From Hydrogenophaga sp. A37 (GTDB lineage Bacteria > Pseudomonadota > Gammaproteobacteria > Burkholderiales > Burkholderiaceae_C), in contig NZ_MUNZ01000101.1 of assembly GCF_002001205.1 (NCBI RefSeq), forward strand, positions 124,001-188,000: a stretch of DNA of 64,000 nucleotides, written 5' to 3'. This document shows positions 4,658-12,290 of this stretch, in pieces. The translations under genes were made by a program, and so were the position numbers. Within the stretch, counting starts at the first letter, position 1, and each line of letters opens with the position of its first letter. Under the pieces are notes generated by a model. That model saw only the letters and a program-made list of their open reading frames with translations, made no database searches and had not been told where the DNA came from.

Positions 4658-5053
4658 GTGTTGATCAATTGGAAATGGGTGTCTGCGCTGTCCGTCGCTT
4701 CGGCTTTGGCGGCTTGTGGTGGCGGTGGTGACACGACTGCGAGGGGCGCCATTGCCGTCAACATGTCGAACGGCTATGGGGCTATCGTGGTCAACTACAC
4801 ATCCCAGCCCGAAGCCAACAGCGATGTCGTCGACAAATGTGCGGACGACAGTGGTGCCGGCTGTGCGGTGATCCTGGAGTTTTCCGGCAATGGAACCTGT
4901 GGTTCGGCGGCTTGGGCTGCTGGTAACGGCGTTTGGGGTGTGGGCAGCGCTGGCTCGAAAGAGGTCGCAGATTCCCGCGCCCTGTCTCAGTGTATTGCCA
5001 AGGGTGGTGTCTCGTGTGAAATCCCGGGATGGCTGGAAACGCAGTGCAATTGA
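4658..5053 (+). CDS. DUF4189 domain lipoprotein
   Basis: A small secreted lipoprotein of 131 residues. The GTG at 4658 follows AGGAGAG and gives a short signal with lipobox LAAC near residues 16-19 followed by GGGG; the frame is open further upstream but that part lacks a signal sequence. The mature part, from GYGAIVVNYTSQPEANSDVV to the end, matches the DUF4189 pattern: repeated small beta units with cysteines, here CADDSGAGC, GTCGSAAWAAG and CIAKGGVSCEI. Function of the family is unknown. It stands alone between the aceA terminator and the thrS leader. Confidence 0.75.
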   Translation: MLINWKWVSALSVASALAACGGGGDTTARGAIAVNMSNGYGAIVVNYTSQPEANSDVVDKCADDSGAGCAVILEFSGNGTCGSAAWAAGNGVWGVGSAGSKEVADSRALSQCIAKGGVSCEIPGWLETQCN

Positions 5054-5141
5054 GCCTGCGTCGCAAGAAGTTGCCTGACAGAAATTGTGGGAAAATCCGA
5101 GTGATTTTAATCTTTTGAAGAGCAGGAAAGGCAGTTTGGTT

Positions 5142-5183
5142 ATGACACCGCGAACTACGGAGATGTTCTCTCTGGCCTTGTGA
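5142..5183 (+). CDS. Putative thrS leader peptide
   Basis: Predicted 13-residue peptide MTPRTTEMFSLAL, with Thr at positions 2, 5 and 6 encoded by ACA, ACT and ACG. AGGAAAGG lies 10 nt before the ATG. A ribosome stalled at the Thr codons would cover the 5' arm of the 5149-5198 hairpin; one that reaches the TGA at 5181-5183 would cover the 3' arm. Three Thr in the first six codons is enriched but fewer than in the best-known leaders, so this is a candidate only. Confidence 0.55.
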   Translation: MTPRTTEMFSLAL

Positions 5184-5226
5184 GGTCTGCAGTTCGCGCC
5201 TGCCCGATTCCTTCTCATTCACATCC

Positions 5227-5252
5227 AGCGCGGCCTTTGCCGCGCTTTTTTT
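5227..5252 (+). terminator. Terminator hairpin immediately before thrS
   Basis: AGCGCGGC and GCCGCGCT form an 8-bp stem around CTTT, followed by a run of seven T. It lies 16 nt upstream of the thrS start codon, too close for a separate downstream promoter, which points to attenuation rather than simple separation from the upstream gene. Confidence 0.9.
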
Positions 5253-5267
5253 GTTTCTGGACTTCCC

Positions 5268-7175
5268 ATGCTTCACATCACGCTCCCCGACGGTTCACAA
5301 CGCGAATTTCCCGGCCCGGTCACGGTGGCCGAGGTGGCCGCCTCCATCGGCACTGGGCTGGCCAAGGCCGCTCTGGCCGGCAAGATCAATGGAAGGGTGG
5401 TGGACACCAGTTTCCAGATCGTCACCGACAGCCCGCTCGCCATCGTCACCGCCAAGGATGCCGATGGACTGGAGGTCATTCGCCACTCCACCGCCCACTT
5501 GCTTGCATATGCAGTGAAAGAACTGTTCCCGGACGCACAGGTGACCATTGGCCCTGTGATCGAGCACGGTTTCTTCTATGACTTCTCATACAAACGGCCA
5601 TTCACACCGGACGACCTGGTGGCCATCGAGAAGAAGATGATCGAGCTGTCCAACAAGGACGAACCAGTCGTACGTCGCGTGCTGCCGCGCGACGAGGCCG
5701 TGGCCTACTTCAAAGGTCTGGGGGAACACTACAAAGCGGAAATTATCGCCAGCATCCCGAGCAACGAGGATGTGTCGCTGTACCGCGAAGGCCAGTTCGA
5801 AGATCTGTGCCGCGGCCCGCACGTGCCCAGCACGGGCAAGCTCAAGCATTTCAAGCTCATGAAGGTGGCGGGCGCCTACTGGCGCGGCGATCACCGCAAC
5901 GAGATGCTGCAGCGCATTTACGGTACGGCCTGGGCAACCAAGGACGAATTGCAGCAGTACCTGACAATGCTGGAAGAGGCGGAGAAGCGCGACCACCGCA
6001 AGCTGGGGCGTGAACTCGATCTGTTTCACATCGACGAGCATTCTCCTGGCACCGTGTTCTGGCACCCCAAGGGCTGGACGGTGTGGCAGGAGGTGGAGCA
6101 GTACATGCGCCGCGTGTACCGCGACAACGACTACCAGGAAGTCAAAGGCCCACAGATCCTGGACAAAGGCTTGTGGGAAAAAACGGGCCACTGGGACAAG
6201 TATCGCGACAACATGTTCACCACCGAGAGTGAAAAACGCGACTACGCCTTGAAGCCGATGAATTGCCCGGGCCACATCCTGATCTTCAAGCAGGGCATCA
6301 AGAGCTACCGCGACCTGCCGCTGCGCTACGGCGAATTTGGCCAATGCCACCGCAACGAGCCCACCGGCGGTCTGCACGGCATCATGCGGGTGCGCGCTTT
6401 CACGCAGGACGATGGCCACATTTTCTGCACCGAGGACATGATCCTGTCCGAGTGCGTGGCCTACACAGCCCTACTGCAAAAAGTCTACAAAGATTTTGGC
6501 TTCAGCAACATCATTTACAAGGTGGCGACGCGACCCGAAGCCCGTATCGGCAGCGACGAAAGCTGGAACAAAGCCGAGCACGCTTTGATCGAGAGCCTGC
6601 GTGCTTCAGGTTGTGACTTTGAGCTTTCGCCCGGCGAGGGCGCTTTCTACGGCCCGAAGATCGAATACACGCTCAAGGATGCGATCGGTCGCCAGTGGCA
6701 GTGCGGCACCATGCAGGTGGACTTCTTCATGACCGAGCGCCTCGATGCTGAGTACGTGGGGGAAGACGGTGCCCGCCATCGCCCTGTGATGTTGCACAGA
6801 GCCATCGTCGGCAGCTTGGAGCGTTTCATCGGTATTCTGATTGAGCAACACGCCGGCGCCTTGCCCGTGTGGCTCGCACCCGTACAGGTTGCGGTGCTCA
6901 ATATCACCGACTCGCAGGCCGAGTACTGTCGCGAAATCGTCAAATCTCTGCAAAATCAAGGGCTTAGGGTCATGGCGGACCTGCGCAACGAGAAAATCAC
7001 GTATAAAATACGGGAGCACGCGTTGCAAAAGCTGCCTTACATCCTTGTCGTGGGCGACAAAGAGAAAGAAGCTGGTGCGGTGGCTGTGCGGGCGCGAGGT
7101 AACAAAGACCTCGGTGTTATGCCGCTGGAAGACTTTTCCAGACTGATTGCGGCAGACGTTTCATCCAAGGTTTGA
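5268..7175 (+). CDS. thrS: Threonyl-tRNA synthetase
   Basis: Charges tRNA-Thr with threonine. The 635-residue protein has the full family layout: an N-terminal TGS domain (residues 1-60), the SAD editing domain with [16 protein letters not shown] near residue 75, a class II catalytic core with motif 2 ([23 protein letters not shown]) and zinc-ligand segment MNCPGHI, and an anticodon-binding domain from about residue 535. The ATG at 5268 has only a weak GGA upstream, in the shadow of the attenuator terminator. It heads the infC-rpmI-rplT-pheST operon, as in other proteobacteria. Confidence 0.98.
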
Positions 7176-7274: not shown

Positions 7275-7290
7275 AAAGGAACTCACCATA
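7275..7290 (+). promoter_or_regulatory. Ribosome site and ATA start of infC
   Basis: AAAGGA at 7275-7280 is followed after 7 nt by ATA at 7288-7290, exactly where the conserved IF-3 sequence begins ([20 protein letters not shown]). No ATG, GTG or TTG lies in frame near it. IF-3 rejects non-canonical start codons, so such a start gives autoregulation; Escherichia coli infC uses AUU for this. Confidence 0.75.
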
Positions 7291-7896
7291 GCTACCAACT
7301 TTCGCGACCGCCGCCAACGCGAAGAGCGCGCACACCGACTGAACCGTGAAATCATGGCCCCCGAGGTTCGTCTGAATGGACCTGAAAATGAGCCGCTTGG
7401 CATCGTCAGTCTGATGGACGCGTTGCGCATGGCCGGTGAGTTGGATGTGGATCTGGTTGAAATTGCCGCCACCGCTGTGCCACCCGTGTGTCGCCTGATG
7501 GACTACGGCAAGTTCAAATACCAGGAGCAGAAAAAGGCAGCGGAAGCCAAGGCCAAGCAGACGGTCATCGAGATCAAGGAAATCAAGTTCCGCCCGGGCA
7601 CCGATGACGGTGACTACAACATCAAGATGCGCAATATCCGGCGCTTTCTGGATGACGGCGACAAATGCAAGATCACGCTGCGCTTTCGTGGCCGCGAGAT
7701 CACGCACCAGGAACTGGGTTTGGCCTTGCTCAATCGCATCCGCGATGAGTTGGCCGATTCGATCGTGATAGAGCAGTTTCCCAAGCTAGAAGGGCGCCAG
7801 ATGATCATGATGATCGCGCCCGGACGCAAAAAAGCTGGTGGCGGCGCACCCAAGGCAGAGCCTGCGGTGCAAAGCACTGAGCAGTCGGCGTCTTGA
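7288..7896 (+). CDS. infC: Translation initiation factor IF-3
   Basis: Binds the 30S subunit, prevents premature joining with 50S and checks start-codon pairing. About 202 residues from the ATA codon at 7288: an N-domain ([35 protein letters not shown]), a lysine-rich linker, and a C-domain ([47 protein letters not shown]). The C-terminal tail [19 protein letters not shown] is longer than in E. coli. An in-frame ATG at 7147 lies inside thrS and would add non-conserved residues, so it is not favoured. Second gene of the thrS operon. Confidence 0.95.
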
Positions 7897-7924
7897 GCGC
7901 AGTCTGAATCAACAAGATTGAACG

Positions 7925-8044
7925 GGCAGGGTAGTCTCCTGCCGGTTCGAGGTCGGTGGTGAAGTCCGCTGTGCCGAATTGAAAGGCTGAAAAGCCTTTC
8001 ACCAAAAGTGGCTCGGGGCCAACAAGTCCGCGGAAGGTTCGCGG
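7925..8044 (+). promoter_or_regulatory. Structured infC-rpmI intergenic leader
   Basis: The 182-nt gap before rpmI holds three hairpins: GGCAGG/CCTGCC (7925-7943), GAAAGGCT-GAAA-AGCCTTTC (7981-8000, an 8-bp stem with a GAAA tetraloop) and CCGCG/CGCGG (8028-8044). None is followed by a T run, so they are not terminators. In E. coli L20 represses rpmI-rplT by binding structured RNA at this place; an equivalent role here is inference. Confidence 0.4.
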
Positions 8045-8078
8045 CGCCTCACGAGCACAAATGAAAAGGAGCATTCAC

Positions 8079-8282
8079 ATGCCCAAAATGAAGACCAAGA
8101 GCAGCGCGAAGAAGCGATTCCGCGTGCGTCCCGGTGGCACCGTCAAACGCGGCCAAGCCTTCAAACGTCACATCCTGACCAAGAAGACCACCAAGAACAA
8201 GCGCCATCTGCGTGGTGCGGTGACTGTGCATGAGACCAATATGGGTCACATGGCACAGATGCTGCCCGGCATGGGCATTTGA
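8079..8282 (+). CDS. rpmI: 50S ribosomal protein L35
   Basis: A 67-residue basic protein beginning [20 protein letters not shown], with the L35 pattern [10 protein letters not shown] and the C-terminal [24 protein letters not shown] lies about 8 nt before the ATG at 8079, so this start is preferred to the in-frame one at 8061. It sits between infC and rplT as in most bacteria. Confidence 0.97.
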
Positions 8283-8306
8283 TCAACGACGAACAAGGAG
8301 TCACAC

Positions 8307-8666
8307 ATGCCTCGCGTCAAACGTGGTGTAACGGCACGCGCCCGTCACAAAAAAGTTCTCGCCCTTGCCAAAGGTTTCCGCGGTCGCCGCGGCAATGTCT
8401 TCCGCATCGCCAAACAGGCGGTGATGAAGGCCGGTCAGTATGCTTACCGTGACCGCCGCACCAAGAAGCGCGTTTTCCGTCAGCTGTGGATCGCGCGTAT
8501 CAACGCCGGTGCACGTGCTTGCGGCCTGACGTACAGCCAGTTCGCCAACGGCCTGAAGAAGGCCCAGATCGAAATCGACCGCAAGGTCCTGGCCGATCTG
8601 GCCGTGAACGACGTTGCTGCTTTCAACAGCATCGTGGAGCAAGTCAAAGCCAAGCTGGCCGCTTGA
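8307..8666 (+). CDS. rplT: 50S ribosomal protein L20
   Basis: A 119-residue protein needed for early 50S assembly, also a likely translational repressor of its own operon. It starts [20 protein letters not shown], with the conserved [20 protein letters not shown] and [20 protein letters not shown]. It lies 24 nt after rpmI behind an AAGGAG site. Confidence 0.98.
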
Positions 8667-8720
8667 TTCACGGCGGAGAACGTCATTGCCCGCAAGGGTG
8701 ATGGCGGTTTCCCGTCGCTC

Positions 8721-8770
8721 AAAGGGGTTGAGGCTTGAGGGGTTCCCTCGCTGCTCTCAGCCCCTTTTTT
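8721..8770 (+). terminator. Terminator-like structure between rplT and pheS
   Basis: AAAGGGGTTGAG (8721-8732) pairs with CTCAGCCCCTTT (8756-8767) with one G-T pair, and the loop contains a second hairpin (GAGGGG/CCCTC). Six T follow. The position matches the pheM attenuator of E. coli, but I found no phenylalanine-rich leader peptide here, so it may simply reduce read-through into pheST. Confidence 0.7.
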
Positions 8771-8792
8771 CATTTCTCTGCACAAAACACAC

Positions 8793-9845
8793 ATGAACGA
8801 GTTGGACGCACTGGTTGACAGCGCCCGCGCTGGCTTCGCGCAAGCTGCTACCCCGGCCGATCTTGAAAACGCCAAAGCCCAGTACTTAGGCAAATCGGGT
8901 CGCATCACCGAGCTGATGAAGGGCATGGCGGCGCTCCCGGTCGAGGAGAAAAAGACCCGTGGAGCCGCGATCAATGTGGCCAAGCAGGCCATCGAAGCCA
9001 CCCTCAATGCGAGGCGTCAGGCTCTGGCCGATGCGGAGCTCGAAACCCAACTCAAAGCCGAGGCGCTCGACGTGAGTCTGCCAGGCCGTCAGCGCGGCCA
9101 GGGTGGTTTGCATCCTGTGAGCCTGACATTGGAACGCATCGAAGCGATCTTCAGCTCGCAAGGCTTTGAAGTTGCCGAAGGCCCCGAGATCGAGTCTGAC
9201 TGGTTCAACTTCACCGCGCTGAACACCCCCGAAGACCACCCTGCGCGTTCCATGCACGACACCTTCTATGTGGAAGGTGGCAGCGCCAAAGCACCGAACC
9301 TGCTGCGCACACACACCAGCCCAATGCAGATCCGCCATGCGGTGCAGCACGTCAAGCGCCACCGCGCTGCGCTCGACGCCGGTCTGCCGATGCCCGAGAT
9401 ACGCGTGATCGCGCCGGGGCGCACGTACCGCGTGGACAGCGACGCCACCCATTCGCCCATGTTTCACCAGTGCGAAGGCCTGTGGATTGGCGAGAACGTG
9501 AGCTTCAAGGACCTCAAGGTCGTGTTCACCGATTTCTGCCGCACCTTCTTCGAATCCGATGATCTGGTGCTGCGTTTCCGTCCCAGCTTTTTCCCTTTTA
9601 CGGAGCCGAGCGCCGAGATCGACATCCAGTTCCAAAGCGGCCCGCTGGCCGGCCGCTGGCTGGAGGTGGCGGGTTCCGGTGAGGTGCACCCGAACGTGGT
9701 GCGCAACATGGGCCTGGACCCCGAGCGCTACATCGGATTTGCCTTCGGCATGGGGCCTGACCGCTTGACCATGCTGCGTTACGGCTTGAACGACCTGCGC
9801 CTGTTCTTCGATGGCGACATTCGTTTTCTTTCGCAGTTTCGCTGA
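8793..9845 (+). CDS. pheS: Phenylalanyl-tRNA synthetase alpha subunit
   Basis: Catalytic subunit of the heterotetrameric enzyme that charges tRNA-Phe. The 350 residues comprise an N-terminal coiled-coil arm (1-90), then the class II core with [69 protein letters not shown], and motif 3 [20 protein letters not shown]. It is followed after 18 nt by pheT. Confidence 0.98.
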
Positions 9846-9863
9846 TCCATTCGGTACGACACG

Positions 9864-12290
9864 ATGCAATTCCCTGAGTCCTGGCTGCGTGCCTTTTGCA
9901 ATCCATCCCTGACCAGCCAGCAACTGGCCGACACCCTGACCATGGCTGGTCTGGAGGTCGAAGAACTGCGCCCGTTTGCTCCTGCCTTCTCCGGCGTGGT
10001 GGTGGGCCAGATCCTGAGCGCCGAGCAACATCCCAACGCCGATCGCCTGCGCGTGTGCCAAGTGGATGTGGGGCAGGGCGTTCCGTTGAACATCGTTTGT
10101 GGCGCGCCCAACGCGCGTGTCGGCATCAAGATCCCTTGTGCCACCGTGGGTGCTTTTCTACCGCCGGGTGAGGATGGCAAGCCCTTTGCCATCAAGCTCG
10201 GCAAGCTGCGTGGCGTCGAGAGCCAAGGCATGCTGTGCTCGGCCAAGGAGCTGCATATTTCCGAAGAGGGCAATGGCCTGCTGGAGCTCGGTGATGATGC
10301 CGTCATTGGCCGCAACATCCGCGAGCAGCTGAGCTTGGATGACATGCTGTTCACGCTCAAACTCACGCCCAATCTGGCGCACTGCCTGAGCGTGTACGGC
10401 ATTGCGCGCGAGGTGTCGGCGCTTACCGGAGCACCGTTGCTGCAACCTGAGTTCCCCGTGGTCGCGGTGCAGATACAAGACCGCCTGCCGGTAAGCATTC
10501 AGGCGTCAGATTTGTGTGGCCGCTTCAGCGGTCGCATCGTGCTCGGTGTGAACACGCGTGCAGCCACACCTGCCTGGATGGTCGAGCGCCTGGCGCGCTG
10601 CGGTCAGCGCAGCATTTCCCCGCTGGTGGATATTTCCAACTACGTGATGTACGAGTTGGGTCGACCCTCGCACATCTTCGATCTCGACAAAATCCACGGC
10701 GGTTTGCAAGTGCGCTGGGGCCGCGAGGGCGAACAGCTCAAGCTGCTCAACGGAAATACCATCTTGGTGGACGACGAGGTTGGTGTGATCGCCGACGCCC
10801 AGCAGGTCGAGTCGTTGGCGGGCATCATGGGCGGCGACGCCACCGCCGTGTCCGAAAACACGCAAAACATCTTCATCGAGGCCGCCTTCTGGTGGCCCAA
10901 AGCGATTGCTGGCCGCTCGCGTCGCTACAACTTCAGTACCGACGCAGGTCACCGCTTTGAGCGCGGCGTGGACCCGTCCACGACTGTTGAGCACGTCGAG
11001 CGCATCACGCAACTGGTCCAGGAGATCTGCGGTGGCCAGGCCGGTCCGCTGGATGACCAGACACTGGTGCTGCCCGAAGGCAAGCCGGTCACGCTCCGCG
11101 TGGCACGCGCTGCCAAGGTGATTGGCATGCCGGTCACACAAGAACAATGCGTGGGCGCGCTGCGTCGCCTGGGTTTGCAAGTCACGGAAAGTGAGGGCGC
11201 GGTGACGGTTGCACCGCCGGCCTTCCGTTTTGACCTGCAGATCGAGGAAGATCTGATCGAAGAGGTGGTGCGGATCATCGGCTACGAACAGTTGCCGACC
11301 CATCCACCGCTCGCACCAATTACCGCCAAGTTGCGCGCTGAATCCAAGCGCGGTCCGTTCGCAGTGCGCCGCCTGTTGGCTCAGCTGGGCTACCAGGAAA
11401 CCATTAACTTCAGCTTCGTGGAGGAACGCTGGGAGCGTGAGCTGGCCGGCAATGCCGACCCAATCAAGTTGCTGAACCCGATCGCCAGCCAGATGAGCGT
11501 GATGCGGTCGTCGCTGTTGGGCAGCCTGATCGCGGTGCTGAAGTTCAACCTGGATCGCAAGGCGCAACGCGTGCGCCTGTTCGAGGTGGGCCGCGTGTTC
11601 CGCAAGGACGCTTCCGTGAAGGACAGTGACGCCAGCGTGGCTGGCTTCGATCAGCCCATGCATGTGGCTGGCTTGGCATACGGAAATGTCGACAGCCTTC
11701 AGTGGGGTAGCTCCGAGCGTAGCGCCGATTTTTTCGACGTGAAAGGGGATGTGCAAGCATTGCTGGCGCCGCTGCAACCCTTGTTCCAACCCGCAGAGCA
11801 CCCAGCCATGCACCCCGGTCGCTGCGCTAGCGTGTGGCTGGATGCTCGCTGCATCGGCCATGTGGGCGAGCTGCACCCAAAGTGGCGCCAGGCCTACGAT
11901 CTGCCGCAAGCGCCGGTGATGTTTGAACTGGCGCTCGACGCGGTGCTCGCGCGAGATGTGCCGATGTTCCAGGCCGTGAGCCGCCATCAGCCGGTGGAGC
12001 GCGACCTGGCCATCGTGGTCAAGGAGTCGGTGACGCACGCCACCGTGGTGGACGCGATCCGCTCGGGCGGCGGCAGCTTGCTGCGCAACGCGGTGCTGTT
12101 CGACGTATACCGCCCCAAGCGGTTGGCCGATGGCGCCGTATCTGGTGGTCTTGCTGCGGACGAGAAGAGTCTGGCGGTTCGACTGACGCTCAACCGTGAC
12201 GACGCTACACTGACTGAAGAAGAAATCGATACGGTGGTCAAAAACGCACTCGTTGCGTTGTCCAAAGGGGTTGGTGCTCGGCTGCGTTGA
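9864..12290 (+). CDS. pheT: Phenylalanyl-tRNA synthetase beta subunit
   Basis: An 808-residue partner of PheS, normal length. Domains in order: an EMAP/OB tRNA-binding domain (about 40-150, with QHPNADRLRVCQVDVG and GMLCSAKELHIS), B3/B4 editing domain (about 210-390, with FDLDKIHG and RHRFERG-like region), B5 (about 400-475, RFDLQIEEDLIEEVVRIIGY), the catalytic-like core, and a C-terminal anticodon-binding FDX-ACB domain ending LVALSKGVGARLR. The start codon ATG at 9864 is close behind pheS. Confidence 0.98.
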   Translation: MQFPESWLRAFCNPSLTSQQLADTLTMAGLEVEELRPFAPAFSGVVVGQILSAEQHPNADRLRVCQVDVGQGVPLNIVCGAPNARVGIKIPCATVGAFLPPGEDGKPFAIKLGKLRGVESQGMLCSAKELHISEEGNGLLELGDDAVIGRNIREQLSLDDMLFTLKLTPNLAHCLSVYGIAREVSALTGAPLLQPEFPVVAVQIQDRLPVSIQASDLCGRFSGRIVLGVNTRAATPAWMVERLARCGQRSISPLVDISNYVMYELGRPSHIFDLDKIHGGLQVRWGREGEQLKLLNGNTILVDDEVGVIADAQQVESLAGIMGGDATAVSENTQNIFIEAAFWWPKAIAGRSRRYNFSTDAGHRFERGVDPSTTVEHVERITQLVQEICGGQAGPLDDQTLVLPEGKPVTLRVARAAKVIGMPVTQEQCVGALRRLGLQVTESEGAVTVAPPAFRFDLQIEEDLIEEVVRIIGYEQLPTHPPLAPITAKLRAESKRGPFAVRRLLAQLGYQETINFSFVEERWERELAGNADPIKLLNPIASQMSVMRSSLLGSLIAVLKFNLDRKAQRVRLFEVGRVFRKDASVKDSDASVAGFDQPMHVAGLAYGNVDSLQWGSSERSADFFDVKGDVQALLAPLQPLFQPAEHPAMHPGRCASVWLDARCIGHVGELHPKWRQAYDLPQAPVMFELALDAVLARDVPMFQAVSRHQPVERDLAIVVKESVTHATVVDAIRSGGGSLLRNAVLFDVYRPKRLADGAVSGGLAADEKSLAVRLTLNRDDATLTEEEIDTVVKNALVALSKGVGARLR

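Follow-up and report, generated by a model that had tools for sequence, protein, structure and literature searches.

Organization of the thrS leader in Hydrogenophaga sp. A37

The window, the whole 64,000-nt stretch of Hydrogenophaga sp. A37 DNA that was analysed, contains thrS followed by infC, rpmI, rplT, pheS and pheT, which Pfam places on the same strand and in the order given in the preliminary description (Table 1). Ahead of thrS lie a ribosome site, a 13-codon ORF with three early threonine codons and both of the alternative pairings claimed earlier. The claimed terminator before thrS is also present, although its T-run ends 15 nt, not 16 nt, before the thrS ATG at 5268.

Table 1. Features of the thrS locus in window coordinates.
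Feature	Position	Strand	Basis or remark
Candidate promoter, extended -10-like TGG GAAAAT	5091..5096	+	By eye; putative for the thrS leader
Shine-Dalgarno sequence of the leader ORF, AGGAAAGG	5124..5131	+	Sequence; similar purine-rich element in many relatives, by eye
Nearly invariant stretch, GGTTATGACACCGCGAAC	5138..5155	+	Comparison of relatives
Leader ORF, MTPRTTEMFSLAL and stop, 13 codons	5142..5183	+	ATG 5142-5144, TGA 5181-5183
Segment 1, CGCGAACT, 5' arm of hairpin 1:2, over the Thr codons	5149..5156	+	Sequence, folding
Segment 2, AGTTCGCG, 3' arm of hairpin 1:2 (8 bp)	5191..5198	+	Complementary to segment 1
Segment 2 as 5' arm of antiterminator 2:3, UCGCGC	5194..5199	+	One U-G in the pairing
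Segment 3, GCGCGG, 3' arm of the antiterminator, within the terminator 5' arm	5228..5233	+	Pairs with 5194-5199
Predicted intrinsic terminator 3:4 and T-run	5227..5252	+	Stem 5227-5234 / 5239-5246, T 5246-5252
thrS, threonyl-tRNA synthetase	5268..7175	+	Pfam TGS, tRNA_SAD, tRNA-synt_2b, HGTP_anticodon
infC, rpmI, rplT, pheS, pheT, downstream of thrS	7288..12290	+	Pfam

Threonine occupies codons 2, 5 and 6 of the leader ORF (ACA, ACT and ACG). At window composition, at least three Thr in codons 2-6 would occur with p ~0.002, a figure that holds for one given ORF and is uncorrected for the number of ORFs. The terminator stem has 8 pairs, 7 of them GC; a terminator-like pattern taken alone was found once between 4700 and 5500, with 0.9 expected by chance. 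On folding, the 141-nt leader is more stable than 200 out of 200 shuffled sequences (z -3.3). The strongest evidence against a chance arrangement is its conservation among relatives. In the minimum-energy fold an outer helix between 5116-5134 and 5200-5221 might mask the Shine-Dalgarno sequence; this idea was set aside, as the helix did not look conserved by eye. When a second copy of the motif was sought in the window and its genome, just the one copy was found.

A sigma-70 scan of 4700-5500 returned no promoter. A -10-like hexamer is present upstream in 63 of 66 Comamonadaceae leader loci (a raw count from a lenient set of ten hexamers, without a chance baseline), and lies 39-50 nt before the leader ATG in 51 of these 63.

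Further downstream, infC apparently starts with the rare start codon ATA (7288-7290; AAAGGAACTCACC ATA GCT ACC AAC TTT CGC); the listed ORF has as its only start an upstream TTG at 7147, which overlaps the end of thrS. A hairpin followed by six T at 8724-8770, just before pheS (GGGGTTGAG ... CTCAGCCCC TTTTTT), is possibly an internal terminator, and no Phe-rich leader was seen near it by eye.

The leader in close relatives

Eighty thrS loci were gathered by ThrS similarity, with the leader ignored in the choice. The leader is kept in 59 of them and 21 are without it; the 59 comprise 56 that match TTATGA[CG]ACCGC and three more divergent ones included manually (L020, L032 and L065). L065 has the shortest leader seen, MTTRT and then at once a stop. 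The threonine codons, whose conservation the preliminary description had proposed as a check, are well kept: codon 2 is ACA in 58 of the 59, and codon 5 encodes Thr in all 59, as ACT in 53 and ACG in 6. A sensitive attenuator is expected to use rare control codons, and ACA (9/115) and ACT (6/115) are the rarest Thr codons of seven window genes. CGA is likewise rare among the Arg codons of these genes (7/189). Past codon 6 the leader peptide is highly variable. Of the 59 leaders, 56 have CCG as codon 3, 57 have CGA as codon 4 and 58 have GTT before the ATG. The near-invariance of codons 2-4 goes beyond what a plain attenuator requires.

Twenty of the 21 leaderless relatives, several of them Limnohabitans, retain a terminator-like hairpin that ends 14-44 nt before thrS.

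In leaderless relatives including L037, L043, L059, L068 and L078 a hairpin is seen within the last 75 nt before thrS. A -10-like hexamer lies just 55-93 nt before the thrS ATG in 17 of the 20 that carry the hairpin, so that the hairpin would sit very near the start of transcription.

Threonine-rich leaders across the Burkholderiales

The 18-mer was found with at most two mismatches in 87 of 399 Burkholderiales genomes. The 31 perfect and 15 single-mismatch matches, 46 in total, all lie in loci with a thrS start, in families f1, f3, f8, f10, f32, f35, f39 and f47. A two-mismatch form, MTPLTT, precedes thrS in five loci from f10 and f23, and the match at L093 is also before thrS. Exact GTTATGACACCGCNNAC occurs in 5 of 369 genomes, three of the five belonging to the window's family. 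Eighteen further two-mismatch loci that were fetched (L083, L085 and L137-L152) have no thrS start and are likely due to chance; spread of the motif outside the order was also rejected, the only exact matches there being L156 and L157, neither with a detectable thrS start. One of the eighteen loci contains a tandem array with a CRISPR-like look (L151:706-1496; unit of 69 nt, ~11 copies, 72% matches), in which the repeat and the spacer-like part both recur and one unit resembles the motif.

From several Burkholderiales families 108 leaders were picked by TTATGA[CG]ACCGC, so that conservation inside this set is by construction. All 108 have an in-frame stop, giving lengths of 10-30 codons, and Thr codons are few (2-6 per leader, with just 2 in 27 of the 108).

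Several families that lack the motif have a different Thr-rich ORF at the corresponding position, often flanked by tRNA-Val and the terminator that precedes thrS. Examples are MSFRTTTTGTLNQG (L183), MFKRTTTTRISR (L194), MQLNRTTTTS (L202), MLKTDTTTLMISG (L189) and MQRTSTKTITYLG (L173), among others, and their Thr-rich openings include MSFRTTTTGT and MFKRTTTTR besides that of L202. In 48 of 58 motif-less sequences from other families (ten of less than 60 nt were dropped), Thr upstream of thrS is enriched over shuffles with a z of 8.7 (47 vs 14.6, largest shuffle 25). Thr is the only one of the 20 amino acids clearly above shuffles in this set, the next being Met at 2.2. In a control of 27 upstream regions from outside the order, Thr reaches a z of 0.9 and Gln is highest (3.1). 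Among 25 motif-less Comamonadaceae sequences, some of which include coding sequence of the upstream gene, Thr is not at the top (Ser 3.7, Arg 2.6, Thr 2.5). An order-wide sample of 66 loci, taken from a 75-genome search and limited to genomes whose thrS start was fetched or aligned, gave 8 loci with the motif, 8 with another ORF of at least three Thr, 4 with two Thr and 46 with none by the rule applied; L192, L193 and L200 were scored as 'none' although Thr runs are visible by eye, with a non-ATG start or later in the ORF.

These leaders bear on how the frozen leader start is to be read. The invariant MTPRT might be a dedicated stall or initiation element, working through the nascent peptide or codon context, beyond or instead of Thr-tRNA. 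The near-invariance of ACA, CCG, CGA and the preceding GTT would suit such an element, as would the leaders that have just two Thr. However, Pro3 and Arg4 are replaced in some leaders with Thr5 kept (MTLRTT, MTTRT, MTPLTT, MRPPTT), and the leaders of other families have mostly Arg-Thr alone in common. We consider this reading unlikely.

Conservation of the competing stems

A terminator lies downstream in 107 of the 108 motif loci, its 5' arm beginning 62-117 nt after the leader ATG. In these 107 loci segment 1 pairs with the spacer at a mean energy of -12.3 kcal/mol (shuffles -10.0, z -11.0) and segment 3 at -14.5 kcal/mol (shuffles -12.1, z -10.6). With 49 representatives of lower similarity, z is -6.0 for segment 1 and -6.7 for segment 3, and the spacer partners of the two segments overlap in 82% of these, compared with 57% in shuffles. 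The families differ: in f47, f39, f10 and f23 segment 1 pairs no better than shuffled sequences do, and in f39 and f10 the pairing of segment 3 is weak. A 1:2 hairpin with its arm in the control codons is supported in the window, its family, f8 and f35; an antiterminator exclusive with the terminator is supported in the window and its family and, by energy, in f8 and f35. In one f10 locus (L114) segment 1 is CGCUGAC and segment 2 GUCGGCG, which by eye form seven pairs with one U-G.

The two pairings were also assessed in ten of 13 other-family leaders picked by eye (L188 and L193 were left out because the script found no terminator, and L192 was left out too). Their mean z is -3.1 for segment 1 and -3.4 for segment 3; segment 1 does no better than shuffles in L189, L166, L198 and L202, nor does segment 3 in L201 and L202.

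A cruder count of helices of at least six pairs, made on all 56 ThrS-selected leaders with a terminator, gave 36 of 56 for segment 1 (shuffles 23.9, maximum 30) and 55 of 56 for segment 3 (shuffles 42.0, maximum 47). By the same count there is no excess in 42 leaders of other families, for segment 1 (29 vs 24.1 in shuffles, maximum 31) or segment 3 (34 vs 32.5, maximum 38). An alignment (A1) was made of 36 of the 56 sequences, hand-picked as alignable and less redundant. Paired cells make up 91.3% for hairpin 1:2, 99.5% for the antiterminator and 100% for the terminator; the first two figures flatter the stems, because the 20 sequences left out include Polaromonas, Rubrivivax and Roseateles types with a differing segment 2. 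In these 20 sequences the cruder count for segment 1 shows no excess (12 vs 8.7 in shuffles, maximum 13). One antiterminator pair changes from C-G to U-A in L058 and L080, perhaps in a single event, and the terminator pair changes too. The covariation that the preliminary description had proposed to look for is thus real but modest, with few two-sided changes, since segment 1 is nearly invariant; conservation of the competing stems, which share one strand, does stand in the window's family.

Across all representatives the cognate spacer fits its own terminator arm better than a permuted one in 1970 of 2000 permutations (30/2000 as good), a moderate effect. Within Comamonadaceae alone the test was not significant, 414 of 2000 permutations being as good.

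The same data can be set against a simpler arrangement, in which an unrelated upstream ORF stands beside a plain terminator that belongs to the upstream gene or, in other families, to tRNA-Val, and thrS is expressed by constant read-through. The hairpin retained by the leaderless relatives would be expected on this arrangement, tRNA-Val does lie directly upstream in many families, and by the cruder count competing pairings do not exceed shuffles beyond the window's family. Yet it leaves unexplained the Thr enrichment, the rare Thr codons and the regular spacing of ORF and terminator; the competing pairings beat shuffles by energy, and in Comamonadaceae the -10-like element mostly falls between the upstream gene and the leader. 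A plain terminator seems very unlikely to us.

Operator-like hairpins before thrS across the class

E. coli ThrRS represses its own mRNA by means of hairpins that resemble the anticodon arm of tRNA-Thr, as described in PMC11088916. The preliminary description was correct in placing E. coli thrS under translational control. We looked for NGU-loop hairpins in the 80 nt immediately before thrS, a scan that detects the E. coli thrS positive control. Within the class but outside the order, 17 of 29 genomes have such an operator-like hairpin (0.5 in shuffles), 11 with a CGU loop and 6 with GGU; the 29 are the most ThrS-similar of 57 genomes searched. Inside the order the scan found none in the window, none in 58 other-family sequences without the MTPRT leader, and 4 in 191 Burkholderiales sequences, which is chance level (shuffles 2.1). 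A ThrRS-type operator before thrS was rejected here on this basis. The hairpin being frequent outside and at chance level inside Burkholderiales, the operator appears to have been lost in this order.

Outside the order the loops carry one or another of the Thr anticodons (L228, L237, L246, L252 and others), and a UGU loop was seen by eye in L246.

The scan weighs against the leader being an mRNA operator bound by ThrRS through tRNA-Thr mimicry, with the ORF incidental. The precedent of E. coli thrS speaks for such an operator, the leader start is kept at the nucleotide level past coding need, and the [G/C]GU before the leader ATG looks like a Thr anticodon. The leader start itself lies outside the scanned 80 nt, but no flanking stem is seen there by eye, and an operator would leave the terminator and the Thr codons unexplained. 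We judge an operator here highly improbable. By sequence comparison, many Burkholderiales families seem to have a Thr attenuator in place of the operator.

A proposed switch

The sequence shows the parts in their order and spacing, Thr specificity recurs across different leaders, and in the window's family the stems are conserved and mutually exclusive. We infer from these features transcription and translation of the leader, stalling, termination and a response to threonine. The leader is very probably a ribosome-mediated transcription attenuator, through which charged tRNA-Thr would control thrS and perhaps, by read-through, infC-rpmI-rplT-pheST. In this respect the comparative data bear out the preliminary proposal of a Thr attenuator controlling thrS.

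RNA polymerase would start just upstream and a ribosome would enter the leader ORF. With ample Thr-tRNA the ribosome would move on, hairpin 1:2 would pair, segment 3 would be left for segment 4 and transcription would stop. With scarce Thr-tRNA it would stall at the rare ACA (codon 2) or ACT (codon 5), or at codon 6, and cover segment 1; 2:3 would then pair before segment 4 is made, the terminator would be blocked and thrS transcribed. Such a leader very probably lets the cell sense Thr shortage and raise ThrRS, as predicted from its sequence.

We modelled the switch on RNA ending before segment 4, the probability being that of the terminator arm held in the antiterminator. In the 49 representatives this rises from 0.37 without a ribosome to 0.81 with a stall near Thr5; with shuffled spacers the values are 0.45 free and 0.70 stalled. 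The gain on stalling, 0.44 vs 0.25 in shuffles, is above all 30 shuffled sets (maximum 0.31). For the window alone the antiterminator is predicted at 0.05 free, 0.69 stalled and 0.78 with a ribosome at the stop codon; the ribosome would thus have to leave for 1:2 to form. The centre of segment 2 is ~10 nt past the first base of the leader stop. When segment 4 is present, the terminator of the window is favoured at equilibrium even during a stall in the model, so the choice would have to be kinetic.

A more far-reaching scheme would tie the frozen leader start to the change of control. In Burkholderiales the ThrRS-type operator would have been replaced by a Thr attenuator, and one large branch would have frozen the first five codons as GTTATGACACCGCGAAC, making the start of the ORF the sensor. 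Already in the first step of elongation, ACA after AUG would sense whether one minor tRNA-Thr is charged, CCG-CGA would act as a fixed slow stretch, and a specialized stall element, not a run of Thr codons, would set the switch. We offer this scheme as speculative and rather doubtful.

Comparison with known systems

E. coli thrS is a textbook case of an enzyme that represses its own mRNA. The same gene seems to have moved to sensing by the translating ribosome in many families of one order, whose members are environmental and in some cases pathogenic. An essential gene would thus have exchanged one mode of control for another, with E. coli-type hairpins in one set of genomes and attenuators in the other. 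MTPRT-type leaders before thrS can serve as a rule for annotation, and the comparison also offers a candidate RNA family that has no Rfam match and a system for testing why a leader peptide is frozen down to its synonymous codons.

In the window and 20 related loci, Rfam returned no family other than tRNA. The covariance model of the Rfam Thr leader, which we take to be the enteric thrABC family, was among those without a match. A T-box was likewise rejected, with no match at the gathering threshold in the window or the 20 loci and none at E up to 10 between 5000 and 5300.

Leader-peptide attenuators are known for amino acid and synthetase operons, for example enteric thrABC, trp and pheST. 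PMC1262725 names pheST among such operons and, for Actinobacteria, its subject, describes attenuators ahead of trpS and leuS. In the main text of PMC2965389 the word threonyl occurs once, for E. coli. In the open literature covered, which surveys from 2004 and 2010 fall outside, there is no description of a thrS leader in Burkholderiales. The mechanism is well known; the thrS member, its spread and the swap of control appear to be new, subject to the 2004 and 2010 surveys.

The leader resembles the known leader-peptide attenuators in its short ORF of cognate codons, its overlapping 1:2, 2:3 and 3:4 pairings and its terminator before the gene, and that of pheST also in having a synthetase gene as target. 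It differs in that the target is thrS, the 2-6 Thr codons are spaced, the leader start is nearly invariant and Rfam gives no match. T-box leaders of Firmicutes likewise make a terminator ahead of a synthetase gene depend on tRNA charging; here, however, there is no T-box covariance match and sensing would be by the ribosome. With the E. coli thrS operator the leader shares its gene and a tie to tRNA-Thr, but no tRNA-mimic hairpin was found before thrS here and, if our reading is right, the leader would act at transcription and without the enzyme.
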